From positions 64,233,994 to 64,297,993 of the forward strand of contig NC_053045.1 in assembly GCF_003473485.1 (NCBI RefSeq): a stretch of DNA of 64,000 nt, in the 5' to 3' direction. Source of the stretch: Medicago truncatula (lineage: Eukaryota; Streptophyta; Magnoliopsida; Fabales; Fabaceae). Below are positions 3,196 to 60,900 of this stretch, one piece after another. The translations under genes and the position numbers were made by a program. Under the pieces are notes generated by a model. The model was not told where the DNA came from. It saw only the letters and a program-made list of their open reading frames with translations, and made no database searches. How positions within the stretch are numbered: position 1 is the stretch's first letter; each line of letters opens with the position of its first letter.

Positions 3196-3241
3196 GTACG
3201 TTTGAGTTTGGTTTATGTTCATTTATTGAAGCTAGGTGGGT

Positions 3242-3652
3242 ATGGCAGAATCAGATGATGAATCAGGTGGTCAAGCTTCAGGGAGCAGAGAATTACTGCA
3301 AGAAAGGCTTCTTCCCATAGCAAACGTGGGTAGGATCATGAAGAAAGCGTTACCGACGAGAGCAAAGATATCGAAAGAAGCTAAAGAAACGATGCAAGAG
3401 TGTGTATCAGAGTTCATAAGCTTCATAACAGGTGAAGCATCTGAAAAGTGTCAGAAAGAGAAGAGGAAGACAATAAACGGTGATGATCTTGTGTGGGCCA
3501 TGACTACACTTGGCTTTGAAGAATATGCAGAGCCTCTTAAGGGTTATCTTCTCAAGTATAGGGAAATTGAAGGAGACAAGAATTTCTCTATGAATATGAT
3601 TGGTAGTAATAAGGAGCAGGAAGGTAGTATTCATCGATTCTTCCAAGGTTAA
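3242..3652 (+). CDS. NF-YB: NF-YB transcription factor subunit (NF-YB4/5-like)
   Basis: This is a single-exon gene for a 136-residue histone-fold protein, the B subunit of the CCAAT-binding NF-Y complex, which pairs with NF-YC and then NF-YA in the nucleus. The histone-fold domain covers roughly residues 22-110. It contains [46 protein letters not shown] and [19 protein letters not shown], the DNA-contact and NF-YC-contact blocks of the family. I chose the ATG at 3242; the in-frame GTG six bases upstream is not a plausible plant start. The residue before the AKE core is Lys (ISKEAKE), as in non-LEC1 NF-YBs. The entry motif, normally EQDRFLPIANV, reads [11 protein letters not shown], and both tails are short, which points to the NF-YB4/5 side of the family. 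The subgroup call is inference. Confidence 0.93.
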
Positions 3653-4786: not shown

Positions 4787-6430
4787 TTATGGATGGATGT
4801 TGCATTCTCGCAAATACACAGAATCATAATGAATGTACTTCGTCCAATAACCTTGAAACTTTTGAATACTTATCTCGAGCCATGGTTTCATATTTCCATT
4901 ATATATAGTGTGTATTACAGCAGCACTTTCGATATCTTTTTGGTTGACATCAGGGTTGTAGCCAAGACCCAAGACGTGCCAGGATCGGTTCAGCGGGAAA
5001 GTATGTTTCCAGAATGTCATAAGACCAGGTGGCAGTGTTCCTAATTTCCATAATTGTCTATCATGATTCTGTAGTCGGATTAATTAGAGAGGAAAAATCG
5101 TCGATGAAATTGGAAAGAAACGAGAAATTAACAGCAGATGCATTTAACTCAATTTTGTCAAGTTTTGGAAAAGTAAATTAAAGTGTGCTTACCAGTTTCT
5201 GCCATTTGTGGTACACCTCTGTGATGTTTTGCTTCTTCCATTCAACTAAATCAAAAACATTCATACATACCGTATGCCCATCCACAAGCACGAGGGTCAA
5301 AATTCTTTGCAACAAGAGGATTTGAGAAGTTGAGGTAACCATCAAAACGATGGAAACTTCCTGCACAAGTTTCAACAGCACCGTTTATGTTTCCCTCCAA
5401 ATTAATCGACCAAAGATCAGTAAGGTCCTTTTGCACAACTACATCATCATCGTCCAAAAACACCACTTTCTTGAGCTTTGGAAATATCTCAGGCAAGTAG
5501 AAGCGGAGGTGGTTCATCATATTCTGTTGTAAGGCGCAATGGAAGACAGTGGATAGCTTTGGGCAGCCAACTGTGTTAAGGCCAATTAAGGCTTTTTTCT
5601 TGTGCACACGAAGCTGATGCTCTGATGAGTGGAGCCTAGCTCTAAGCTTCTAATTCACAGCTGTGGCACAATCATCTTGAATTTGACTTGCTTTCATCAA
5701 TGATTGCTCCATTGCCTTCATTCTCTCATTTTCACTGCATTAGTAGAATTACAAATATAAAGTTAATAAAGATGAAATATAGCTATAACAACATTGGAAA
5801 ACCTTCTGACATGTACTCTTAAAGGATTACTTACTTCCTTGGCAAGTCGGAATCTTTGCTTGCATCTCCAAGCGTTCGTGAAACTTCCTTCACCCGTAAC
5901 TGAAGCTCCCGCCCGTGTGAGATGGGAAGGGAAAGATAAACTTTAGCTTGGATGAGCTGATCCTTTAGTTTCTGTACACGCGCATCAAACGGCGTTGGAC
6001 TATTATTATGCTTGACAGTTTCTATTACCATGGATCCATTATTTGTCTTTGCTAGAAGATTCAATATGTTGGTAAGGAAAGTTTTGCATTCAAACGGCGT
6101 TAGACTTCTTTTCTTTTCAAGTACATCTTTGATGTTTCAAAAAAAATAAAATTGAAAGTTTTGCTAGTGTGACCAAAAACCTAAGGAAAGTTTTGTACCC
6201 TGCATTAATGAACAAAGTACAATCTCATGAAGTAAATATGTCACTTACTATAGTTTCAGATACTTGATGAGAAGCATTGGATAATTTAGTAAGTTTTCCC
6301 ATCATTGTCATCAACATCAAAAGCATCAGCCTTCTGCAAGTAGTTACGTTGATTGACAAACTTAATATCATGAGGCAAGTTATCCATGTTTGAAGATTCT
6401 TCCCTACCGACAATAATATTTCTCATGACA
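4787..6430 (-). pseudogene. GAUT-type galacturonosyltransferase pseudogene (GT8)
   Basis: On the minus strand the exons read as a GAUT (pectin homogalacturonan synthesis, Golgi). An early exon lies near 6413-6250. Next comes the stem segment with VQKLKDQLIQAKVYLSLP and KEVSRTLGDASKDSDLP (about 6064-5831), then ERMKAMEQ (about 5730). The GT8 part has MNHLRFYLPEIFPKL, FLDDDD, GAVETC and NPLVAKNFDPRACGWAYGM (5540-5260). The last exons read NVFDLVEWKKQNITEVYHKWQKL, then NHDRQLWKLGTLPPG to the conserved C-terminal LRECNIHP and stop at 4787. Four lesions are visible. An in-frame TAG follows the stem near 5652. Roughly 170 residues between the HKKK segment and NHLRFYLPE are missing. A 4-base TATG duplication after WAYGM shifts frame near 5263. 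The metal-binding run has four Asp instead of three. Splice sites of the last intron look intact, so decay is fairly recent. Confidence 0.9.
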
Positions 6431-19140: not shown

Positions 19141-20930
19141 CATATTTTATATATTTTTTTTTTTTAAAAGTATGTTAAAAATGTGAAATACCAAAAATAC
19201 CCTTAATGATAAATTAAAAAATTCAATTATTTTCCTTTCTCTTCTTCTTCAGCGGGTATCATCTTCTCTCTTTTTCCCTCATTGTTCTTCATTCTCTTCT
19301 CCAGATCTCATCCTTATTTATTCTTCCTTCTAATTTTTTTTTACAAAAATTCTTTTCTATTTTTGTTTATTCCATTTAAATTTCTTTTAATTAAAAAAAA
19401 AAAAAACATCATTCTCTTCTTTCTTCTCTCCGCCGTATCACTCTCTTTCTTCCTTTTTTTTTCTTTTTCTTCTCTTCTTTCCCACCTTTCTCTTCTATGT
19501 TTCTGTACTTCCTTCTCTTATCTCTCTTCCTTCTCTTTCTACGACCTCCATTTTTTGTGTTGTATTTGATGTCAAAGGTCTTTGTTGACCGTCGTAGAAA
19601 CCCCGCATAAGCTGCAAAGCAATTGCAGGGATTTTATGAACGGTCGACAATGACCATGACACCGTAAATACTCATAAAAAACTATTTTTTTTAAAGAAAA
19701 AGTAAGAAAAGATGAGAAGTGAAGAATGAATGAATTTGTTGAATATGCAAGCATATTTATAGCCTTAAACAAGTCCTAGATCATAACTACAATCAAAGAG
19801 TATGTTTTCCATAGCCCAACAGTCCAAAAATGCATTAAACACACCACAAACCGTTCAAAGTTTTTTTATTTTATTTTGTGTTTTACAACAAATGAACCAA
19901 ACACACTTATTTATAGAAAGGAAATAAACCAAACCTTATAAATAGAGCGCGTGAGAAACCGATAGGGTGGAAAAAGTAATAGTCAACTCATTATGATAGT
20001 TGTAGTGTATGATTAACCATTTGAGTTCAATCATTTGTTTTTCAAACTCTAATTTTATATGAAATGCATCAAGCTTGTTTTTGTTAAAAAAAAAAATTGG
20101 AACCTTGCTAAAAAAAAAATTCTTTCAAAATGTGTAATAATTGTTATTATGACAAGTGAAAAGACATCTTTTCATTTTTTTTATTACGCTAACGCGTGTA
20201 TATTATCAACGATATTTTATCAAAATTTACGTGTAAATTACAAACGATATTTTATATAATTTTTTTTATATAGATTAAAATTATAAGTATAGATATTTGT
20301 GATTTTCAAATGGAACAAACTCAACAAACCATATTTATCTTTTCATATTGATAACAATAATATAACAAATATAATAAAATTCTTAAAAAAAAACAAATAT
20401 AATACAAATTCTTTTCTTTTTTAATAACACCAACAATATAACATTATTATCAAAAAATATATTTAAGTGTACGATTAGAATAATAAAAAAGTCAGTCCAA
20501 AAAGTCGAAACATGCTATTTTATTTATATTTAAAGTCTTTCCGCACTTTTTATTGCGCTAACTGTGTTTTTTTTTTATCAAATTTTGATTTTGATTAAAA
20601 CTAAAAATATAAATGTTTGTTGCTTTCAAGTTATAACAAACCAAACTAGCCATGATTATCTTTTTTTTTTTTTGTTAGATTGTCTATTTCAATGACACCA
20701 ACAATATAAAAAAAATATAATTTAATTTTTTTTTTAATGACACCAACAACAATCTTTATTATAAAAAAAAATTTGTTTAAGTGTATAATTGGGATAATGA
20801 AAAGGTAAGTTTGAATATACCCGTTGATAAAGAAAAAAAAAAGACATATAGATATATTTATATAGTGTTTTTTACATTTTTTTAATACTTAAATTTATTC
20901 TTTATCTATTTGTTAATGTGTTATTCGTAT
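19141..20930. other. Intergenic with CT-rich tract
   Basis: 19230-19560 is almost pure pyrimidine (TCTTCTT-like), resembling a plant 5' UTR or degenerate microsatellite; the open frame through it is low complexity. At 19750-19765 the minus strand has a TATA-like 'ggctataaatatgc' followed by a leader-like stretch, but only a 13-codon frame follows. No gene is supported. Confidence 0.45.
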
Positions 20931-32620: not shown

Positions 32621-34782
32621 ATGGAAACTGGAGGAGGGTTTCATGGCTACCGCAAACTCCCCACCAACACCAATTCTTCTGGTACGTAATAAATAAACTA
32701 TAAATATAAAACAAAAAATATTCTTCGAATGTTTCTTCTCTATGTGACATTTGTTTTGTGTTTTTTTCCTTTTTCTTTTGTTGTGAATGTTAACATCCAA
32801 TTTGATCTTAATTTCTCACATGCAGGATAATATTATACTTTAAGGTATATAATATATTTCAGTGTGCGTGTATGGTAGTGACAGATGCATGCATGATATT
32901 CATCTCTCTTATATAATATTTTGTTGAGACATCTTTAATTTAGTCGAATGATCAATTTGTTGATATTTTGTATCTGGTCTGAATTCTTGTTTTCTCTGTT
33001 TAAACAAGATTTATTTATCTGTATTTTCTTTCGTCCAAGTGATCTACCATACCACCATCGATCACTCCAGCCACCTTTGTTTTGTTGTGCAAGTAAAGGA
33101 AGGTAACGGAAACCATGAAAAAGAAGATGATGGCGTAAATGGGTTGTGAATTGTGATTGTATATTTTGGAATGGAACAAGTGTCGTGCATGCATGCATAA
33201 GATCATTGACTTTAGAGTTACAAGTGTCTTTCATGCATTCTTCAATAATATGATCATAATGCATAATACAAGGATCTGTCTGTTTGTATGTCTCCACTAT
33301 TACCACCTTTTACGCCTTTTTATCTGTCTGTCTTCTTTCACTCTTTCAAGCCAACCCAATTAGATACTTCTGTTTTGGATAGATATAACAGTAAATTTAA
33401 TAGCCACTTATTGATGAGTAACAATAAGGTCAAACTTACTGCTATTAACAAGCAAGTTTTAAATTTGTTTTCAAGTTATAGTATATATATAGCACTGCAC
33501 CATGACAAGTTTTCACACTCTTCTTATGTTTCCCATATAACTTAAGTTTGAATATTGTCCCTTGATGTATTTTTGGACTAATTAGAGAGAGTTTAACATA
33601 ACCACGTACAGTGTCATTTAAGAAATTGATCTCTCCCAAAATACTATGTGTATTCAAACACGCAATTGTTCTGTTGTATCTTTGAAATGCGTATTTAGAG
33701 TGACGAATGCATGAAAAGAAAAAGGCATAAAATAAAAAAAATAAAAAAAAAAGAGAAACCGTTTTTATTGGTTTGTTTGTTTTTGTCTCCTTTAAATTTA
33801 ATCGCATGCAATTAGGCCCTCTTTTTGTCCTTTAGTGTCTGATTCCTCTGTTCTCGAGTAAAGCTACGTACAGAAACACCTGACACACGCTCCCTCTCCC
33901 AACAACACCTACCTATAAAGTCTTAGGTTAGTCCTTAACCCACTCTACTCTAATTGGGCCCCCTCACCACCGACCCATCCTACTTGTCATTTCCTCTTTC
34001 GTTCTCTCTTCAACTATAATCTCACGTGTACACATACCATTTGCTACACCCTTAACTATCTTATCACTATGTTTCATTTCATTCATACATACATCTGCAT
34101 TTATGGACATGTTAAAAATATTTAATTTGATTAAAAAATTAATTCAACTTTCAGTCAAAATTGAAATGGTATCAAATATTTGGATTAGATACATGAATTT
34201 TGTTTGACCAAATTAAATTAGTTGAGTATTAAATATGAATGAGATGGATGCAGCAGTAGCAGGGACGTTGAAGCTATCATCAGTTTCTGAGATGAACACG
34301 AGGCAGCAAGTAGGAGAACAGAACAACAATGGTACAGAACAAGACAATGAATGCATTGTGAGGGAACAAGACCGTTTTATGCCAATTGCAAATGTGATAA
34401 GGATCATGCGCAAGATTCTACCACCACATGCAAAAATATCTGATGATGCAAAAGAAACAATCCAAGAGTGTGTGTCTGAGTACATCAGCTTCATAACTGG
34501 AGAAGCCAATGAACGTTGTCAGAGAGAGCAAAGGAAGACAATAACTGCAGAAGATGTGCTTTGGGCTATGAGTAAGCTTGGTTTTGATGATTACATTGAA
34601 CCTCTAACAATGTACCTTCATCGTTATCGTGAGCTTGAAGGTGATCGTACCTCAATGAGAGTTGAACCTTTGGGAAAGAGGGGTATGGAATATGGAAATT
34701 TAGGGGGGTTTGTCCCACAGTTTCATATCGGTCATCCAAATGGAGGGTATTATGGTAATGCTGCACCAACTTATATGATGAG

Positions 34783-34816
<34 letters not shown>

Positions 34817-34915
34817 GCACCAAATGCTGCTAATGCTGCTGGAGGCTCATCTCATTCTCAGGCACTTGCAAATGCTGAAGCCAATGGTCATCATCATCAC
34901 CATCAATATAAATGA
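32621..34915 (+). CDS. L1L (NF-YB6-like): LEC1-like NF-YB (L1L/NF-YB6 type), 2 exons
   Basis: Exon 1 (32621-32681) encodes [20 protein letters not shown] and ends one base into a Gly codon. The donor is gtacgt, the 1581-base intron ends gtagcag, and exon 2 (34263-34915) continues [12 protein letters not shown]. The product is 237 residues. The histone-fold domain (about 57-147) contains [57 protein letters not shown] and [18 protein letters not shown]81 in ISDDAKE is the aspartate that marks LEC1-class subunits (Lys in other NF-YBs). The C-terminus is Gly/Asn/His-rich, with a nine-Asn run coded by an (AAT)n microsatellite. LEC1-class proteins act in nuclear NF-Y complexes promoting embryogenesis and seed storage programmes. 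An ATG at 34235 lies in the intron and would lose the conserved N-terminus; I reject it as start. Confidence 0.95.
34788..34815 (+). repeat. Coding (AAT)n microsatellite
   Basis: An AAT repeat in the reading frame of the LEC1-like gene gives nine consecutive Asn residues in the C-terminal low-complexity tail, probably variable in length between accessions. Confidence 0.9.
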
Positions 34916-40455: not shown

Positions 40456-42352
40456 TGGGAACCCTAACATAGGGTCTTTACTTGGCGAACAAGTTTTTTT
40501 TTTTAGATTTATTTGATTTTGAAATAAAAAAATGTATTTTTCTTTCTTGTTTTGAAGGGAAATATTTTGTTTTTAGCCATTAGGGTCTCTGATAAGTTTA
40601 GTTCTTGGATCCACCTATAAAAAGAAAACTGTTTTTAGGTTTTTTTTTTTTTTTTTGTTGCATGAGAAAAGTTATGTTTTTAGATTTGATTTTGAATTAA
40701 AAAGATTTTGTTTTATTATTCCAATGACAGCTAGTAGCTTTGGGGAAAATATACCTCACACCTCAACAATTATACCTTTATCCCTACAAATCATAAAAAA
40801 TACCAATTTTAACCTTTACAAAATCTCCCTCATTTACCCCTACAAATCATCATTCACCTCAAACCACCAATTTCTCATCTTGAGTATAATGTTTGTGAGT
40901 TGTGAATTTTAAATTGTAAAAAACTTTGCTTGTATTTTTCAATGATACCAACAACATGTCATTATGTTTCTAACTTACATTTTTTTTTTATGCATGCACT
41001 AACTCATAATCTTATCTTAAACGTAATGCATATAATAATTTATTATTTTAAGCAAAAGTGATGCATCGAGCAACACTTAATTCATTGAAAGAGAAAAGAG
41101 AGGAGCACAAAAAAGAAAATGAGGATTAGACCAAAGCCTTTTTAAAAGGTAGTTGATCTATAGTTAGGAAGACCTAATCTATTAAGTTGTATAAAGAGAG
41201 TCATATATAGTGGCTAGCATATCAACACAAGAATTATCTTCTTTGTAAATATGAGTTACAATTAGGTGCATGTTGTTAATCAAATTCAAACAGTTAAGCC
41301 ATATGTTCCTAATCTGTCAGAGGTGCATATATTAGCCTTATTGAAAGCTAGTGTGACCAATTTTGAGTCGGTCTCTAGCCAAAGGTTAAACCGGACTTTG
41401 GAGTAAGCTAGCTATATAGCCAAAATAACAACAAATAGTTCAGCATAAAGACAAGTTTGGTTAAAGAAAAAATCAGCCCATATTTATGTATCTCTTTTTA
41501 TATGGATCAAGATTCTCTAATGTTAGAAATCTAGACCCTTAAAATACAAAAAGGAGATAATGTTGAAATTAAGAAGAAAAAAGCGAACCTAATTGAGTTG
41601 GCTGGTGGTGTTGGTTTATGACCTTAGTTTGTTCCTCCTCAAAATCTCATATTCGTTTCTATTAGTGTTATAACCAAATACAATAAAATAAATATACAAT
41701 TATACGCAATAGAAAAATGAAAAGGCACACATTTTAATGTTTGTTTTGACGTTAGTAGTATATAAATGCGAAATGGATCCTCTAGAAAAACTCATGTTTT
41801 CTCAATTCTTTAATAAAAAACCTAAACCAACTTTTCACCGTTTTCTTCTTAATTATTTTCAAGGACTATTTATTGAATTACAAAGACTATTTTTTAAAAT
41901 CACGTAAAATGTAAACACCTAAAATATATTTAACCTTAAAATAATTGGGACCCACTAATTGTCACATCAACATTATGTTAGAGAATTAACATCAGGGACT
42001 AATTTTAATAACGGAGATAAAATGAGAGGATTTTAAAAACATTTAATAAAATATAGGAACTATTCTTCAAAGGGGCACAAAATGTAAAGACTAAAAACAT
42101 ATTTGACCCTTATTCTTTTAAGAATCTAAATTATCTTTAAAAAAAAAAAAAATTAACTCACCAAATTGACACTTGAAAATTTTTCTTCAGTTGAAATAGT
42201 ATTTGAAAGACTAAGTTCGCTAATTTGACTTTCCGCTAAAAAAAAAAAAAAAAAAACGACAACGTATATTGAGCTATGTAATTGAATCAGTTCAAAAATA
42301 ACAAAAGAATATATAATAATCTAAGTGAAAATAAGCATCGAATAATCACTTG
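40456..42352. other. Intergenic, no gene
   Basis: AT-rich. 40735-40870 resembles a 'caaaccaccaatttctcat' type leader but has no sustained frame. 41860-42120 carries a decayed 'ggactaattttaataacgg' type transposon end. Nothing intact. Confidence 0.45.
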
Positions 42353-42424
42353 GCTTCCATAGCATAGTGGTAGTGCGTTCCCTTCGTAAGGGAAAGGTCG
42401 CGAGTTCAATCCTCGCTGGGAGCT
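42353..42424 (+). tRNA. tRNA-Thr (anticodon CGT)
   Basis: The acceptor stem GCTTCCA/TGGGAGC is fully paired. The D-arm is GCATAGTGGTAGTGC; the anticodon stem-loop is TTCCC-TTCGTAA-GGGAA with CGT at 42385-42387; the T-arm is GCGAG-TTCAATC-CTCGC; the discriminator is T. A/B boxes are intact, there is no intron, and a T-rich Pol III terminator (ttttattttttt) follows at once. CCA is not encoded, as expected in a eukaryotic nucleus. Confidence 0.95.
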
Positions 42425-42703
42425 TTTATTTTTTATGTGATTGTGGTTTTTTTTATTTTTTAAATGTAATATTGTGGATATCAATAACTAATTTGTCAAA
42501 ACGATAATATTGTCATTTTCTATGATATAAATAAGAGAAATGCTTTTGACAAACTCTCTGTCAAACTCTTTTTAACACACCCTCTTACATGAAGCCACAT
42601 CATCTATCTAATTAATAATTTTACTAGTTACCGGTTGTCCCTGTTAAGAAGGTTATTTCTTTTATTTTATTTTCCCCTTATTATTTGTTCAACTTCTCTC
42701 ACA

Positions 42704-42712
42704 CGTATATAA
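42704..42712 (+). promoter_or_regulatory. TATA box in left TIR, promoter of transposase
   Basis: TATATAAAA within 'cacgtatataaaactcaag' sits near the inner third of the left TIR. A leader with a probable intron (donor near 42997-43002, acceptor 'gaaatatag' at 43280) links it to the ATG at 43287. Confidence 0.65.
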
Positions 42713-43286
42713 AACTCAAGTGAAATCATCTCTTCCGCAAACTACTCCACTACTTTACGACAGAATAACAAGAATATACAACAGAGACCAACACATCAAA
42801 CTCCATCTTTACCCTGCAATATATACCTTGGCGCCATCTATCTATATTGTAAAATCTTCTCACCGCTGCACTCACTGCAACATATTCTTTCCACCGTCGT
42901 CAAACCATAGTTGGTGTTGCCATCATTTGTTTCAAAGCCACGTCCACCAAATTTCTATGTTACACTAGTGCAATCTGTTATCATCATCTCTTAAAAGTAA
43001 GGTAAACATTACTTGTTAGTATGGTACTTGATGGAACTATAAATATATAAATATAATATATTAGCCTTATAATATATATGTGGGATTTAGACAATTAGTT
43101 TTAGATCTTTAGTTTTGTACATAGTATATTTACATTCATCGTTACCAACTTCCCCAAATAAATTCTTTTTAATGTTTATTTTATTCAGTACATTATGACT
43201 AATTCTTTGTTGCTTTGAGTTATCATTACTTGTTATATATATATATATATATATAGTTATAATTATTATCTGAAATATAGGAATTA

Positions 43287-45416
43287 ATGGAAGTTGTTGA
43301 TGGGAATGGAGAACATTCTATTGATGGGAATGAAGAGCAAGCTCTCAAGGAGATTGATGACAATGATTCATGTACCGTTGATTTAGAGGCTAACGGTGGT
43401 CAAGAACCTAACATTGGAATGAAATTTGATTCACAAGAAAATGCTTATTCGTTCTACACTCATTATGCTAAATCAGTTGGGTTTGGGATATCAATTAAAA
43501 ATAGTCGTCGTTCAAAGATTTCTAGAGAGTTTATTGATGTAAGTTATGCTTGCACAAGATACGGCAAGAAGCGAGAATCCAGTTCACAAAATCCACGTCC
43601 TTGTTTGAAGGTGGGATGTGAGGCTAGTTTACGTGTTAAAAGAATTTGTGATGGAAAATGGATTGTTCATAGCTTCATTAAAGACCACAATCACGAACTT
43701 TTTCCAGCATATGCACATTATTTTCCTTGCCATAGAGGAATCAATAAAGCTCAAAAGCATTCTATTGAAACTTTGCACCATGTTGGAGTGAGAACAAGCA
43801 AAAATTTTGCCACAATGGCCAAAGAATATGGAGGATATGAAAACATTGGTTGCTTGGAGAAAGATGTAAGAAACCATTTAGATAAAGGTCGGCGTTTGGC
43901 TTTAGAATCTGGAGATGCAAATGCAATGTTGGATTGTTTTATGCTCATGCAAGAAGAAAGTCCAGGATTCTTTTATGCAATTGATATGGATGATGAGGGT
44001 CGCATGAAAAATGTATTTTGGGTGGATGCAAAAGGTAGAGAAGACTATCAAGAGTTTGGAGATGTGATTTCATTTGATACTACATATATCACAAATAAGT
44101 ACAAAATGCCATTTGCTCCTTTTATTGGTGTAAACAATCACTTTCAATCAAGGTTACTTGGCTGTGCATTACTCTCAGATGAGACCAAGAACACTTTCAT
44201 ATGGTTGATGAAAATATGGCTTAGAGCAATGGATGGAAAACCTCCAAATGCAATCATAACTGATCAAGATAGAGCAATGAAAGAGGCTATTAAAGAGGTA
44301 TTTCCAAATTCTCGACATCGATTTTGTCTTTGGCATATACTTAGAAAGGTGCCTGAGAAGCTTAGTCATGTTTTAAGAGATGACGAAGACTTCATGAGAT
44401 ATCTCAACATATGCATATATAAGTCTTAGTCAAAACAACAATTTGAAGATAAATGGCATGAAATGGTGGAAAAATTTGATCTATTTGGAGATGATTGGAT
44501 TCACTCTTTATATGAAGAACGTGAACATTGGGTTCCTGTTTACATGAATGATACATTTTTTGGTGGCTTGTCAACAACTCAAAGATCAGAGAGCATTAAT
44601 TCTTTTTTTGACAAATATGTATGTAAGAAAACTACATTAAAGGAATTTGTCGAAAAATATAAAGTTGCTTTACATGATAGAGAAGAGGCGGAAAAGCAAG
44701 CTGATTTTAAGACATGGCACAAGCAACCTGTTCTTAGGACTCCATCACCTTTTGAGAAGCAAATGTCGATGATATATACACATGAAATCTTCAAGAAATT
44801 TCAAGTTGAAGTTTTGGGATTATCTGGATGCCGTATTGTGAAAGAGCATAATGATAATCTTACTGCCACTTTTACAATTTTCGACTTTCATAAAAATGAC
44901 GAGTTTATTGTAGAGTGTGATGTCTCGAAGAAGGAAATATCGTGTCTATGTCGCTTTTTTGAGTATAATGGGTATCTTTGTAGACATTCATTGATGGCAT
45001 TCCAAGCTGTTGGTGTCTGTGTTGTCCCATCACACTATATTTTAAGAAGATGGACCAAGGATATTAGAAGCAAGCATCATACAAGGATAATGAAAGAAGA
45101 TGTGTGTTCTAGTAAGGAGAGATATGATTCTTTATATCAAAAGGCTATTGAATTTCTTGAAGAAGGATCGCTAAGTTTTGAGAGTTACAATTTGGCTTGC
45201 CATGCACTTGAAGAAACTTTGAAACAGTGTGCAACTATCAACCGGTCTTTGAAAATCGACAAGGAAAAAGTTGGTCAGAGCAGTTTACGTGTGAAGCTAG
45301 TGCGTGATCCTAAAAGAGCAAATACAAAAGGGGCTCCAAGAAGAATAAAGAGTGAGATCGAGAGAGGTCGTAAGAGAACATCTAGTTGTAAAGTAAAAAA
45401 GGTTAGAAGATTTTAA
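43287..45416 (+). pseudogene. FAR1/FHY3-family MULE transposase with one amber codon
   Basis: One frame runs 709 codons but for a TAG at 44427-44429 (codon 381), between CIYKS and SKQQFEDKWHEMV; CAG (Gln) is the likely original. The FAR1 zinc-finger DNA-binding domain is at about 50-145 (YSFYTHYAKSVGFG, CTRYGKK, KVGCEASLRV, IVHSFIKDHNHEL). The MULE transposase core is at about 220-420: D264 in ISFDTTY, D326 in ITDQD, then HRFCLWHI. The likely third acidic residue is the Glu in TTQRSESIN, after the stop. The SWIM finger is C553-x-C555...C565-x-H567. The basic tail is RRIKSEIERGRKR. Length and order match FAR1-related proteins. Its place inside matching TIRs shows it is an element transposase, not a domesticated FRS. 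Truncation at codon 381 would remove the SWIM domain. Confidence 0.93.
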
Positions 45417-46307
45417 CTTCATCAAAATTTGTATAATGTTTTTTTTTTTCTATTTTAGCATTATTTCTCATTGTTATGTATTTGTTGTGATTTTAAGTCT
45501 GCTATTGTCCAAAGAGAAGCAGTAAATACCTCAAATGTTCTCAATGATGAAGTAACAGCTGCATTGCCAAGAATGGTATGACACATTATTCTTAGGTGAT
45601 TTAATATTTAGTTAGTAGATACATTTTGAGTTTTCAACTAATTGTCTTTTGTTTTCTTATTTTCACAGGAAAATCATCAGGGTTGAAGGAGCTAAGAATC
45701 TTGTTTTAGAGACTTGTTTGATATACTTTTGTAAAGACTAGATGATGATTCAATTGGATTTGATAATGTTGATGTGATAATCAACTAGACATCTTTATGT
45801 ACCAGTTTATGAATCTTTTATTTTACTGATGTGGTTTTCTTTAAATAAAAGACCTATTAGGATTTAGCTATGTTGATATGATGATCAACTAGATTTGTTT
45901 ATTGTTTGTTGTTTCTGTTCAGTTTGGCGGTGTTTTTCCGGGGCGTTACGCGTACGGGCGGCGTTTTTGTTTTGTTGCTTTTGGCAGCTTGGCCTCGAAT
46001 AAAATTTCCCAGATTCAAAAAAAGTAGCAGTGGACTTAAACCAATTCGCTATGTTTCATGTTTGTATCTAGCAGTGGACTTAAACCAATTGGCTATGTAA
46101 CTCACATGTTATCAGTCTAAAAAAATGTTACTCACTTGTTTTTAAATAATTTTTTTGGAAGGCAAAATTTATTAATAAACTAACCTAAACACAAGATGTG
46201 CAAAGGATTATATAAAGTACAAAGATACAACCATCAATTGCACAAACTTTACATGTCTATCTCTCAATAAAGCTCGATGAAAACAAAAAACCAAAATTAA
46301 TCAATAC
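45417..46307. other. 3' region of MULE after the transposase
   Basis: 45500-45580 could be a non-coding or alternative 3' exon ('aagaatg' then gtatg; acceptor 'ttcacag' at 45669). 45930-45990 contains an oddly GC-rich patch ('gttacgcgtacgggcggcg') in a short open frame of no recognised family. Confidence 0.4.
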
Positions 46308-46480
46308 CTATGAAGCACAGATACATAACATAAACTAGAAACAACACGAACACAAGCACATGGACACCGATAATAATTTGTAAACATCACATAATTCAAT
46401 ATAATTATATGTGTCGGTGTTAAAAATCGACGCGTGTCTGACATCGAGCACGCTTAATTGAGGAGTATATGTGCTTCATA
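46308..46480. mobile_element. Small MITE nested in MULE, 173 bp
   Basis: The ends 'ctatgaagcac' and 'gtgcttcata' are complementary. The flanks 'aatcaatac' (46299-46307) and 'aaccaatac' (46481-46489) differ at one base. The interior has the 'cgtgtctgacatcgagcacg' text I know from a common legume repeat. Confidence 0.75.
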
Positions 46481-47094
46481 AACCAATACATTAATCCTCC
46501 AAAAGCAAAGATAGCAATACTTATGAGATTCTCTCCCTGTACAAAAATTTATATTGGCTAGATAAGTAAGATTAATGATCAAGCTGTTGCTATCAGTCCA
46601 CCTAATAACTTAAAATCCTTTAGTAATATCTCCACAAACTTAAGATAAAATTCAATCACAAACTTAAGAGCCTAGAACAACTCAAACATATTAAGCAGAG
46701 TTCATCAATCCGGATACTTCATCCTCTTTTCACTGTCCTGAGAGCTAAAAAATCAGCACATCATATCATACCAAAAAACTCCCAACAACTTTAGAGTGGG
46801 GCTGAACCACTCAACATAATAACAAATATCCTAATTCCAAAGATAGAATGTAAATCACTTGTAAATTATCATTCATCTCTTATTTCTTTATTTATACATT
46901 TATTAGCACTAGTTCTCGTTTACAATTATTCCTTTATTAGGGGTTGTGTCTTGTTGGGTGATTTTGCCATTTTGCTCCATTCCTTTATGAATTAGACGAC
47001 AATTGAATCTCATTTCACGTTATTAATGTCCTATATATTTCTCAACCAACCAAACCACTGCTTCCCAATTTAAATGAAAAGGAGAATATTGCCA

Positions 47095-47380
47095 ATTGCA
47101 GGGTAAAGATGGAGTTTGATGTGTTGGTCTCTGTTGTATATTCTTGTTATTCTGTCGTGAAGTAGTGGAGTAGTTTGCGGAAGAGATGATTTCACTTGAG
47201 TTTTATATACGTGTGAGAGAAGTTGAACAAATAATAAGGGGAAAATAAAATAAAAGAAATAACCTTGTTAACAGGGACAACCGGTAACTAGTAAAATTAT
47301 TAATTAGATAGATGATGTGGCTTCATGTAAGAGGGTGTGTTAAAAAGAGTTTGACAGAGAGTTTGTCAATAACATTTCTC
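47095..47380 (-). repeat. Right 286-bp TIR of the MULE
   Basis: It is complementary to 42535-42820. It carries the same inward TATA box on the minus strand, but no open frame of note follows it leftwards. Confidence 0.93.
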
Positions 47381-48073
47381 AATAAATAATTAAATATTTT
47401 CGAAAATAAAATCACAAAATTTATAAACATCTGAAAAAATGAAATTGATTTAAGTCAAAAATTATTTAATAAATTTAAATTAATATTATTATTTTTTAAA
47501 CATTTACCTTTTGTTAAGAGTAATTTTGTCATTAAAATATCTATATTGAAATAATAAATAATGTTGTCGTACGTGTGTGTGCATTGTCATTAGTAAAGAA
47601 ATGTGCTTGATCTAGTGAATGAAAGTGAAGAATGCAAATTAGCAACTGTTTATATCAACATATGCTGGTGCAGCTGTAGCAAAGATTAAAGGAAATGAGA
47701 TGTAGTAAAAACCAAAGAACATTTAAATGAGATGGTAGAATGTGTTTTAAGTGTAATAATAGATTTCAAGTTCGAATGCAATCATGAAAATGCAATAATA
47801 TTAAAATTTTTAGACTTTGTTTGCAAGTTTGGAAGGGACGGGTGGGGAGCGGTTTGAAAAAAATGGAAGAAATAGATGATGTTGAGAGGAAAAGACCTTG
47901 AAAGTTAATTTTTCTTCATAATACAAGGAGGAACTAAAAAATTGCATTGGAAGTAGGGGTGAGCAAACATCATAGACCCGCCCGAAAAACCGCTTAAACT
48001 CCAACTCATTTCAATAAAACGAACGGGTCGGTTCAGTTGTCAGGTTAATAAAGGAAGAATATAGGGTTAATAC

Positions 48074-54954: not shown

Positions 54955-57900
54955 ATGGCGGGTTCTTCTTCTCCTTCTTCGAAGAGTCATTATCTGCAGC
55001 TACTGAAGGAGTTAGGATCCAAGTTCGATATCATCGTTCCTACTTCCAAAGACTCTCTCATCAAACTCTTGAAGGTTTTCTTTTTCTTCTTTCATCTTCC
55101 AATTCAATTTATAACTTTCAACAATTATTTATTTATGTAGCTAAGTTCTTTTAGGATTAAGATTTAATGCATTCAATTTCGTGCTCTTCTTTTAAAACCT
55201 AGCTATAACTGTATGTATGTAGGTGTTAGTTAATTTACGTTATTAGGTTTTTCTTCAATTGGAATTAATAAATTACTATTTCTGGTAAATTTATTACTAT
55301 GCTTGTTTTTATGAGCTCACAATTAAATGACTAATTTGATTCTTGAGTGGAACAATTCTTGCTAGAGGGTTAACACACAAAAAAGAAAATTAAGAGGAAA
55401 TGGATACATATACTGAAATTTGCAACTGAATCAGAAAGGAATGTTTGTGAATGAGGGATTAGTTGTTTATATGGAAATAGGCTCTGTTTGGATTAACAAC
55501 TAATTAGTTGAGAGCTTCTCAATTAAAATGAGGTTTATGTTCATCACTTATGAACAAGTCTGTGTAAGCTTATAGGTGTTTATCCAGTAGTTAAATGACA
55601 GAGTATTTGAAAGAGTTGAGATGCCGCAGCTAATTTTTATTAATAAACAAGAAGCTGTTATCTAAAATATATGCTTAGTTACTTAAGATTTTTTAATATT
55701 TTTATCTTTCCATTGGTATTTGTGGAGAATTCACTCAAACTGACTCTTAGTGTTGTGAAATTAGTCTGTTATGAAGCTACTGTGTCTTTCTTTCATGCAG
55801 CAAGCAACCACATACCTTGCTGAGTTGGATCAGTCACCTTTGACTACAACAAGAGATTCAATGAATCCCTTTTTTAATGCAATTGTTAAGCCAGAACTAC
55901 TGAAACACCAAGATAAGGATGTCAAGCTTCTAGTTGCAACATGTATTTGTGAGATAACTCGGATCACTGCACCTGAAGCTCCTTACAATGATGAAATTCT
56001 AAAGGTGCCTTTCTTTCACTTGGTTATACTTCATTTTCATATTCACAACTTAAGGAATTATCTCCATTTTAGTTTGTGCCGAAAAAAGGTGGAACATTAT
56101 TTACGATTATCCTTTGCACTAATCTATGTTAAATCTCCTTGTAGGATACCTTTCGGTTGATTGTGAGCACTTTTAGTGGTCTAAGTGATACCAGCGGTCC
56201 ATCCTTTGGACGGAGAGTTGTTATATTGGAGACACTTGCAAAATATAGGTCGTGTGTTGTGATGTTAGATCTTGAATGTGATGATCTGGTGAATGAAATG
56301 TTCAGTACTTTTGTTGCGGTTGCCAGGTTTGTTCATCATAAAATCTTATAATTAATCGTCAAGTGTGTGCTATTATTAATTACTTATAAATACGGGTTAC
56401 CCTTGTGAAAGTTTCTGTTATTCACTTGCAATATTGCAAACCCAGTATCTTGTTTTTTTTCCCTCTCTAGTTCTTTTGTTCTTTTACCTGGTCGTATAAG
56501 AAATTAATAATGACAAATGAATTAAAGATAATTACACAAACTATACATCTCTGCATACCTGGAATGTGGTGTTTTTGAGAAGCAAGTAATGTATTGCTAC
56601 ATACAGCCTCCACCTAGTTGGACAAGGCTTGATTATCATTCTTGAAACTTGACACTTTCAGACACTAAAATGAGAGCTAAGAATATATGTCCTAGCCATT
56701 TTCTTGTAGGCCAAAATTTCTATGCTTTCTTGAAAAATTCCTCTTTGGATTAATAATTGTTTAACCCATATATTTTGTTTCATTCTTAGAGATGATCATC
56801 CAGAAAGTGTCTTGTCATCCATGCAAACTATAATGGTGGTTCTCTTAGAAGAGAGTGAGGATGTTCACGGGGATCTGTTGTCTATCTTACTTTCTACATT
56901 AGGCCGCGGAAACAAGGTATTTACTTTTTATAAATTCCTCTTCCTCTTGAAAGCAGATAGCTAATGCTTTTACTGCTCTAAATTCCATTATTATTTAAGA
57001 AGTGTGATTTTTCAAATTTTATTTCCAGGGTGTTACTATGGCTGCAAAAAGACTTGCCATGAATGTCATACAACATTGTGTGGGAAAACTTGAATCCAGC
57101 ATTAAACAACTTTTGCTATCGTTAATGTCTGGAGATAGCAAGCTAGTGAACAGTCAAATTGAATACCATGGAATTATCTATGATCTCTATTGCTGTGCTC
57201 CTCAGATCCTATCTGGAGTTCTCCCTTATGTGACAGGAGAGCTACTGGTAATTGATGTTTTATTGGCTTAAAGCAGTGTCATGCATCTCCTTTGTTATGA
57301 TTTTACTGCTACGATATTTTCTTTAATATACGTCGTTATGATTTGTGGAAGTTCTGAGTTTTGAAATATATAAAGTTGTAATATCAGTCATTTGGGCATC
57401 ATTAATTTTGTTCATGAGTTGGGTTAAATAATACTTTTTGCTCTCCTTTGATGTCTGGTTTCTCACTTGTAATCTGGAAATTTGTAGACAGACCAATTGG
57501 AAACCCGTTTGAAAGCAATGAACTTGGTTGGCGATATGATTTCTATTCCTGGAACTTCCATTCCTGAAGCATTTCAGCCTATATTTTCAGAATTCTTAAA
57601 GAGGTTGTCTGATAGAGTTGTTGAGGTTCGCATGTCTGCCATTGAGCATGTAAAGAACTGTCTGCTGTTGAATCCTTTTAGAGCAGAAGCTTCTCAAATA
57701 TTATGTGAGTGCAATAAACACAAACATCCAGTTGGTCTATGTTTTTTCTAATCTTTATGTTATACCTGCTGATTTTATTTGAGTTGTACTTAGCTGCTCT
57801 TTGTGAACGGCTGCTGGATTTTGATGAAAATGTTCGAAAGAAAGTTGTGGCTGTTATATGTGATGTGGCATGTCATGCCCTAAATGCAATCCCACTTGAA

Positions 57901-60900
57901 ACGGTGAAACTTGTTGCGGAACGGCTTCGTGATAAATCTGTATGTATATCTCTATATTTTGGTCTTCGTGTCTTTTTTATCCAACCTTTTGTTGATTTGA
58001 CTATGGCATCTCATTTCCTTTTTTTACTTTACATTTGCAGCTACTTGTTAAAAAGTATACTATGGAAAGATTGGCTGAAGTGCATAGAGTTTTTTGCGAG
58101 AATAGCTGTGAAACAGTCAAACTCAATGAATATGACTGGATTCCTGGGAAAATTGTTAGATGTTTCTATGACAAAGATTTCAGGTGTCACACTTCTGCTG
58201 AATTCTTTAGCATCTTTGCTACTTCTTATTTCTATTTTTTCCTTTTTGGTTTGGCTTTCCACTTTTCATTTCTATTTTTTCATGTTAGATGCGTTCTAAT
58301 CATGTGTTTTTTCTGTTCATTTCATTATGCAGATCTGATATAATTGAATCCGTTTTATGTGGATCCGTATTTCCAGTAGAATTTTCAACTAGTGATATTG
58401 TTAAACGTTGGGTTGAAATTTTCTCTGGATTTGATAAAGTAGAGGTCAAGGCTCTTGAAAAGATATTGGAGCAGAAACAAAGGTAAGCCTGGTTGACTTC
58501 TCTGGTTTCTCAACATCAATAATCAATAAAAATTTCATTTGTATTGTCTTTCTCTTGTAACAGGTTACAGCAAGAGATGCAGAAGTATCTGTCTCTGAGG
58601 CAGAAGCATCAGGTATGTGACTTTGTAAGTTGGAAAGATGAATTTCTCATAGGGAATTTAACGACAATGGCATTGAATCTTATTTAAATGCAGGATAAAG
58701 ATGTTCCTGAGGTCCAAAAGAAGATTCGATTCTGTTTCAAAGTAATGTCCCATTCGTTTGGTGACCCCATAAAGGCCGAAGAGAATTTCCAGTTTCTCGA
58801 ACAGTTAACAGATGCTAATATTTGGAAGATTTTGGCAAATCTTGTTGATCCAAATACTAGCCTCCATCAAGCACGTGCCTATCGGGTAAAATTAATCACT
58901 GAATGATAGATATGTTTTCAATGATGCATTTTTTTGGAAAATCATTGCTAGAAACTGTATATACATTAGTCGTCGAAGTGAGTATGAGAGCTATTTATTT
59001 GAACTTGATGCTCAATTCCTGTGATATATACAATTTACAAATATTTCCTGAACTTGGGTGCTTACTTTCTCCTTTTTTCTTTCTTTCCTTTTTTTATTTC
59101 TGATTTTAACTCTTTTCAGTAGTTTCATTAATTGCCTCCTCGGATGGTATTGCCAAATACACTGGCTTTCCCTTGCTTTTTGACTATAGATTTGATTAAT
59201 TATTCTTTTCACTTTGCGAGTGTTATATTATCAACATTATAATCTTAACACAAGCCTGTATTAAATTGTTAACCACTGAACTGGCAACTAGCTTAAACTA
59301 AAATTAACATTAACGATCTTCAGAATCTGATGCCACTACATCTGTGTCTAGATCTACTTTCCTGTAGCCGTTACGAAGATTATTTCTAGGTGTCAATAAG
59401 ATGAACTGCATAGACTCAGTGCTGTAATTTCAAACAAATCATGACTGTTAGGGGTCTGTTAGCTATACTCTAGTATTATACTAAGGAACACTATCACAAG
59501 TTTCAACATCTAAATGTTAGCCTTGTTGTTGTTATGCGTTTTTTAATAACTATTTTTGTAGTTGAAAGAAACTGTACCTTGGACTTTGTTATTTGCCAAT
59601 TGTGAACATTTTTGTTTATTTATTTATTTCTTGTCTGCAGGATGATTTGCTTAAAATACTTGGCGTGAAACATCCTCTCTACGAATTTCTGAATACATTC
59701 TCTATGAAGTGCTCCTACCTGCTTTTCAACAAGGAGCATGTAAAAGCAATTCTTGAAGAAATTGTAGCTCAAAAATCTGCAGAGAATGCTCAGCGTACAC
59801 AGTCTTGTATGGATTTATTGGTGGTAAGAGCATATCATTTTTAGGTCTCTTGGACTGTTGCACGTAGTTCGTTAACATTTATCCATGAATTCTGGGACAG
59901 ATAATGAATAAATAGTTTCCAGCTTTAGCTTATAATGATGTTGCAAATTGTGCTTTATGTTGATGCTGATTAATTGGTATTTGTGGACTTAGGATGATTG
60001 TGTATAGTAAGTGCTGATTTTTCCAAAAACTTAATCTGTTAGGAGAAGGGCCAGAAATGATTTTTATTTATATCTCTAATTATGGATTTACTGGTGGTAA
60101 GAGCATATCATTTTTAGGTCTCTTGGACTGTTGCACGTAGTTCGTTAACATTTATCCATGAATTCTGGGACAGATAATGAATAAATAGTTTCCAGCTTTA
60201 GCTTATAATGTTGCAAATTGTGCTTTATGTTGATGCTGATTAATTGGTATTTGTGGACTTAGGATGATTGTGTATAGTAAGTGCTGATTTTTCCAAAAAC
60301 TTAATCTGTTAGGAGAAGGGCTAGAAATGATTTTTATTTATATCTCTAATTCAGCCTCTTGAGTGAAAATCCCTTAAGCTTTAAGTCTGAAATAATCAGA
60401 TTCCCGGATGGAATCTTTGAATCGAGTATGGTAACTGGCGTGGATCAAACTTTTGATTGTTTGGTCCCTATATATATATATATATATATATATATTTGAA
60501 TACAAGTAACTTATTTTTTATATGTATGATAGGATGAGACTTAATTAATTAAAAGAAGCTTTGATATCCCAAGGGTTTGTTTGATATGTATGATAGGATA
60601 ATCCCTAAATGCCTAAGCTGACAGGAAAAGGTTATAGAATAGTTTTTAACAAGTGCCATTGTCATGTGTTTGGAATTTGGATGCTTTTAATTTTTCATAT
60701 CCTTCTCTAATAATTTTATCCTCAAGTATTCCTGCTATGAAACTGTGGTGTGGTTTGCATCAGTGTGGACACAGATTTAGTATTCAAGAGAAAAATATTT
60801 TCTTATTTGAAAATTAACTTGTGATAAACTGCAGATAATTGCCCGTTTCTGTCCATTGGTTCTTAGTGGTAGTGAGGAGGAACTGGTGAATCTACTGAAG

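Follow-up and report, generated by a model that had tools for sequence, protein, structure and literature searches.

In a 64,000-nucleotide stretch of the Medicago truncatula genome (C4:64233994-64297993, 32% G+C; here called the window), we found a Mutator-like element (MULE) with long terminal inverted repeats (TIRs), a target-site duplication (TSD), and a transposase frame encoding FAR1, MULE, and SWIM domains that is broken by one internal stop codon. An earlier note on this DNA had described this arrangement, and our analysis confirmed it as a whole. The element is very probably a formerly autonomous, FAR1-carrying Mutator-like transposon of the Jittery group that landed here recently and is now disabled by a TGG-to-TAG change in its transposase gene. 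Relatives were sought in the assembly, which comprises 429.9 Mb in 42 contigs. The features of the element and its target site, by window position, are as follows.

42526..42534, no strand: left TSD, TATAAATAA, 8/9 identity with the right copy
42535..47380, plus strand: whole element, a FAR1-type Mutator-like transposon copy of 4846 bp, bounded by its TIR ends; the full-length relative L009 terminates at identical bases
42535..42820, plus strand: left TIR, 286 bp
42706..42714, plus strand: TATA-box-like stretch in the left TIR, a possible promoter by motif match only; the right TIR has the same stretch
43287..45401, plus strand: main transposase exon, ending at a predicted splice donor; its 705 codons include one TAG
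43449..43706, plus strand: FAR1 DNA-binding domain, residues 55-140 (Pfam PF03101, E 2e-25)
44064..44345, plus strand: MULE transposase domain, residues 260-353, including presumed catalytic Asp264 and Asp326 (Pfam PF10551, E 4e-32; alignment)
44427..44429, plus strand: amber TAG at codon 381; TGG in the closest copies among those listed
44589..44591, plus strand: presumed third catalytic residue Glu435, 3' of the stop; Glu in 7/7 aligned sequences
44916..45011, plus strand: SWIM zinc finger, residues 163-194 of the post-stop segment (Pfam PF04434, E 2e-8)
45498..45575, plus strand: predicted second coding exon, 26 codons
45669..45686, plus strand: predicted last coding exon, ending in TGA
46309..46480, no strand: insert resembling a miniature inverted-repeat transposable element (MITE), with 16-nt inverted ends (15/16), common to L009 and L010
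47095..47380, minus strand: right TIR, 286 bp, 282/286 identical to the left TIR, ungapped
47381..47389, no strand: right TSD, AATAAATAA, 8/9 identity with the left copy

The ends of the element are as the note had read them, with about four mismatches between the 286-bp TIRs (282 of 286 positions are identical, with no gaps) and one mismatch in a 9-bp TSD (8/9 between TATAAATAA and AATAAATAA). For a control, we compared random pairs of 9-mers from the window, and a likeness of 8/9 or better was found at a frequency of 0.00047. The element also shares 463 16-mers with its own reverse complement, compared to 0 in one shuffled copy, and its termini are GAGAAATG. The length of the TSD lies within the 8 to 11 bp of the Mutator superfamily, and PF10551 identifies the RNase H-like transposase of the MULE type; the match to the IS256 family is weak (E 2.6e-7, 30 bits versus a cut-off of 150). 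The uninterrupted gene of an autonomous element is lacking here, with TAG standing at codon 381.

The family to which this element belongs has transposed recently. A full-length copy of 4840 bp on contig C1 (L009) differs from the window copy by 36 substitutions over 4837 compared positions (~99% identity) and has its own perfect TSD (TTTTACTAA, 9/9), and between the flanks of the two copies we found only short matches (longest 34 bp, best E value 2e-5). Because 4.84 kb is shared, the flanks are unrelated, and L009 has a perfect TSD of its own, the two copies on different contigs are separate insertions, which bears out the recent mobility proposed in the note. There are nine differences among the four TIRs of these two copies, and since all nine are singletons, the TIRs still matched one another when the two copies diverged. 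When L010 was used as an outgroup, 9 of the substitutions mapped to the window branch and 18 to the L009 branch, with 2 differing in all three copies and 7 unplaceable. The TGG-to-TAG change maps to the window branch, where the coding changes are 3 nonsynonymous, 1 nonsense, and 0 synonymous; on the L009 branch, they number 5 synonymous, 2 nonsynonymous, and 1 nonsense, and random change is expected to be ~26% synonymous, 70% nonsynonymous, and 4% nonsense. The ratio of nonsynonymous to synonymous substitution rates (dN/dS) between the window copy and L009 is 0.29, from 11 differences only. At plant substitution rates of 6.5e-9 to 1.5e-8 per site per year, the divergence of the window TIRs corresponds to central ages of 0.47 to 1.09 million years (outer limits, 0.13 to 2.82), and the 36 substitutions between the window copy and L009 correspond to 0.25 to 0.57 million years; on these figures, the window copy probably landed within about the last million years. 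Nested inserts were rejected as a sign of age at this site, as the MITE-like insert and the stretch at 45901-46140 are also found in L009 and L010. Since both of these copies contain it, the insert was carried along and is silent on the time since landing.

The transposase DNA of the window copy matched at least 46 places in the assembly (65 candidates, 40 scored). Fourteen stretches were examined, and codon 381 could be read in nine copies besides that of the window (L009 to L016 and L020), the matched parts of L017, L018, L019, L021, and L022 stopping short of this codon. No stop is present at codon 381 in any of the nine (0/9), so it is not the case that all related copies share it. L009, L010, and L011, the three closest listed copies that cover this codon, have TGG, as do the more distant L015 and L020; L012 to L014 have CTG, and L016 has CGT, a reading that may come from nearby gaps. 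The TGG of the near copies rules out CAG, which the note had expected, as the codon that was lost. At the corresponding position, four FAR1-like genes of the genome have Trp (two genes), Leu (one), and Ser (one).

The note had also suggested possible present activity of siblings that lack the stop. The stop is indeed absent from the other copies read, but the suggestion fails for the three nearest copies that cover codon 381, all of which are broken by other lesions. L009 carries a nonsense TGA at codon 415. L010, on contig C6, has a 1-bp deletion and is also interrupted by stops at codons 333 and 404; its left end is altered, and its right end was not found within the stretch examined. L011, on contig C7, is an interrupted fragment with frameshifts and a stop. 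A further relative on contig C5 (L018) is a 550-bp fragment with 94% identity. Among the matches listed, an intact gene is thus absent from the window copy and from all three near copies that cover codon 381. As judged from these lesions, the near family has lost its genes copy by copy through what appear to be independent mutations.

The frame at 43287-45416 contains a single internal stop, the TAG at codon 381, compared to 29 to 86 stops in the remaining five frames of that DNA, and third-codon G+C is about equal on either side of it (0.274 and 0.284). Pfam places the FAR1 and MULE domains and a ZSWIM1-3 RNaseH-like match 5' of the stop and the SWIM domain 3' of it, in agreement with the frame and sole break described in the note. 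The length of 709 codons given there does apply to the frame read to 45416, but the gene probably ends elsewhere. Because protein likeness to a sister family (L012 to L014, described below) stops at KVKKV, where a GT donor starts, and the predicted exon frame is preserved in L012 despite gaps totalling 12 nt, the frame reading to 45416 probably runs into an intron, with the C terminus encoded by the predicted exons at 45498-45575 and 45669-45686. The predicted spliced product has 736 codons, counting the TAG as one, compared to 709 for the unspliced frame. When compared to solved structures, the FAR1 part gave weak WRKY matches (best E value 0.0088) and the C-terminal part gave no match. An Rfam search over 42400-47500 at E values up to 0.1 found no RNA family match, and no relatives outside the genome were confirmed in viral_contigs, plasmids, or genome_contigs (the last for the C-terminal part only).

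The sister family consists of L012, L013, and L014, which are 3.72 kb long, 98.4-99.3% alike, and 82% identical in DNA to the window family, with perfect TSDs of 9, 10, and 9 bp, respectively. Among the matches listed, open frames turned up only in this family: in both L012 and L014, the frame is open over 728 codons, encodes FAR1, MULE, and SWIM domains, and continues beyond the presumed splice donor, and the frame of L013 is interrupted. Over 696 codons, the window copy and L012 give a dN/dS of 0.275, which shows that selection acted on the transposase during most of the period since the two families split. Between L012 and L014, there are 4 synonymous and 21 nonsynonymous differences (dN/dS of 1.28), as expected of decay. 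In addition, Tyr replaces the presumed second catalytic Asp in L014, whereas the other 6/7 sequences compared have Asp there, so an open frame by itself does not imply a working transposase. The Tyr of L014, the interruption of L013, and the dN/dS of 1.28 all weigh against a live family.

TIR-like sequence was found at 16 places in the genome, of which 4 are the ends of the window copy and L009. We examined 10 TIR-matching loci: at three, the ends pair and are flanked by a perfect TSD; at one (L034), they pair without a TSD; and at six, no pair passed our filter. The short elements found are 763 bp (L030), 863 bp (L031/L032), and 976 bp (L033/L036) long, with TIRs 75-82% like those of the window element and perfect TSDs of 9, 9, and 10 bp, respectively. 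These elements are likely non-autonomous partners.

In its active state, the element would have had one gene, with transcription probably starting at a promoter within the left TIR. By analogy with other MULEs, the N-terminal FAR1 domain would bind the TIRs, and an RNase H-like core, with Asp264, Asp326, and Glu435 as presumed catalytic residues, would cut and join DNA, leaving the 9-bp duplication. With the TGG-to-TAG change, residue 380 becomes the last to be translated, and because both the presumed Glu435 and the SWIM finger are thereby lost, the window copy is not expected to produce a functional transposase. Its ends may still be mobilized by transposase made elsewhere.

This last point bears on the order of events, since an already broken copy could have been moved here in trans by the transposase of another locus, as non-autonomous MULEs are. 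The TIRs of the window copy are intact, related short elements without a transposase have moved and have perfect TSDs, and no intact near copy is found among the matches listed, so a source would have acted in trans or since decayed. However, the stop is absent from the closest relatives and hence young, and a single copy cannot reveal whether landing or mutation came first; we regard a stop that preceded the landing as rather doubtful. That the TAG is a sequencing or assembly error in an intact gene is quite improbable: the change is one substitution, but with nine substitutions on the window branch, private changes are not unusual there. It is very improbable that translation yields a 380-residue product, with FAR1 and MULE domains but no SWIM domain, that serves as a regulator or competes for DNA binding in the manner of FM-type or FRF proteins. 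Both domains are whole 5' of the stop, and truncated FAR1 genes of this shape are common, one of them being functional in rice (PMC8599713, PMC13306707); however, apart from the stop, the coding changes on the window branch are 3 nonsynonymous and 0 synonymous, and the stop itself is probably too young for signs of retention. Duplication of a chromosome segment in place of transposition would account for the near identity of the two full copies across 4.84 kb, but the likeness ends at the TIR ends, flank matches are at most 34 bp, and each copy has a separate TSD, so we give this explanation next to no weight.

Several points also weigh against a formerly autonomous Jittery-group element that landed recently and is disabled by TGG-to-TAG, the reading that we prefer. 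The TSD of the window copy is imperfect (8/9), and its age in years depends on assumed rates and small counts. The coding changes on the window branch fit decay after loss of function but are too few for proof. Structure prediction for the read-through protein gave no usable fold (mean predicted local distance difference test score, 33.6), so the catalytic residues are presumed from alignment. Finally, the placement in the Jittery group is made by description.

That placement draws on PMC6446971, in which Jittery is grouped (group 36) with MUJITOS2, MUMET1 of Medicago truncatula, and MUTRIM1, and in which Table 1 characterizes the subgroup from dicots and monocots by an N-terminal FAR1 domain, a C-terminal SWIM domain, and TIRs of 39-292 bp. 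The window element likewise has one transposase gene with an N-terminal FAR1 and a C-terminal SWIM domain, and its TIRs are 286 bp long; the TSD entry in the same source is 'Not indicated/8 bp', compared to 9 bp here. By gene make-up and TIR length, the element thus fits the Jittery group of MULEs, and the window family may be the same as MUMET1, Jittery and MUMET1 both having been compared by description only. This kind of element is already known, and the window family adds a member. Another Medicago truncatula element, AutoMuTAnT (PMC4486113), is also ~4.9 kb long, with one Jittery-like transposase gene and 9-nt TSDs where readable; it is described as having (TA)n microsatellite targets, a five-exon gene, and GGGG termini. 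In contrast, the window element ends in GAGAAATG, and the targets of the window copy, L009, and L012 to L014 are not TA arrays; these ends and the non-TA TSDs and flanks rule out membership in AutoMuTAnT. In a survey of FAR1 genes from 80 plant species (PMC8599713), genes whose premature stop spares the FAR1 and MULE domains were common, and 84% of the FM-type genes analyzed had frameshift or nonsense mutations at the end motif. The window locus resembles the FM type in its premature stop, which falls immediately downstream of the MULE domain and leaves both FAR1 and MULE, but the truncated genes of F and FM type in that survey are annotated genes, whereas the window locus is an element with intact termini.

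Other features were recognized in the window. A tRNA-Thr (CGT) gene at 42352-42425 ends 109 bp from the left end of the element, and an Rfam MIR2587 microRNA precursor (full-length match, 84.6 bits) lies at 19569-19662 on the minus strand. CBF/NF-Y histone-fold domains are found in two open reading frames 31 kb apart (3236-3649 and 34226-34912), matches to the cohesion protein PDS5 are found in two open stretches (55765-56157 and 57718-58296), and an open stretch at 5254-5649 on the minus strand matches glycosyl transferase family 8.

The three domains of the transposase are also those of the FAR1/FHY3/FRS host transcription factors. A FAR1/FHY3 host gene has no TIR or TSD and is not dispersed; the window locus differs on each count, being bounded by TIRs, flanked by a TSD, and accompanied by near-identical copies at other sites. 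The binding site of FHY3/FAR1, CACGCGC (PMC13306707), is absent from both the window element and the L012 element. A partial site, CACGCG, occurs once in the window element, within the MITE-like insert (46431-46436, minus strand), and there is none in the TIRs. We found that the read-through protein matched at least 63 scored places in the genome at E values up to 1e-20 (919 candidates), 19 of the 63 having stops inside the match. Eight of the more distant matches were retrieved, and in a midpoint-rooted tree of 12 proteins from this one genome, with Jittery not included, the four MULE copies form one clade whose sister is L039, L040, and L041, at 44-47% identity. The split uniting the mobile clade with L039 to L041 has support of 95 (IQ-TREE) and 0.993 (FastTree). 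These three are open genes that retain the presumed Asp, Asp, and Glu, and no inverted repeat spanning any of L039 to L042 was found in the ~1 kb of flank examined per side. Because of their domains, their open frames, and the absence of TIRs nearby, we infer that L039 to L041 are FAR1/FHY3-type host genes. Some members of the other branch of the tree, L042, L044, and L045, match several places almost equally well, and these could represent additional mobile families. The connection to domesticated regulators drawn in the note is supported in this small tree, in which the mobile clade is sister to FAR1-like genes, and the general relationship of FAR1 regulators to MULEs is already in print (PMC6000157, PMC2528002, PMC13306707). 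PMC6000157 also mentions, citing Chan-Rodriguez and Walker 2018, a maize transposon that is active and carries the TIRs of a putative FRS5-LIKE gene.

It is unlikely that the window family and its open-framed sister form a live mobile lineage in this genome whose closest relatives are the FAR1/FHY3 light regulators themselves, as its sister group; if they did, the mobile and stationary branches of one transposase would be comparable within a single plant. What we have described is a recently moved FAR1-type MULE family in Medicago truncatula, whose copies appear to have died independently and whose sister family retains open frames. Sharing a genome with the FAR1-like genes to which it is related, this mobile family would provide a useful comparison for the changes that came with domestication, for example in the absence of CACGCGC from the element.

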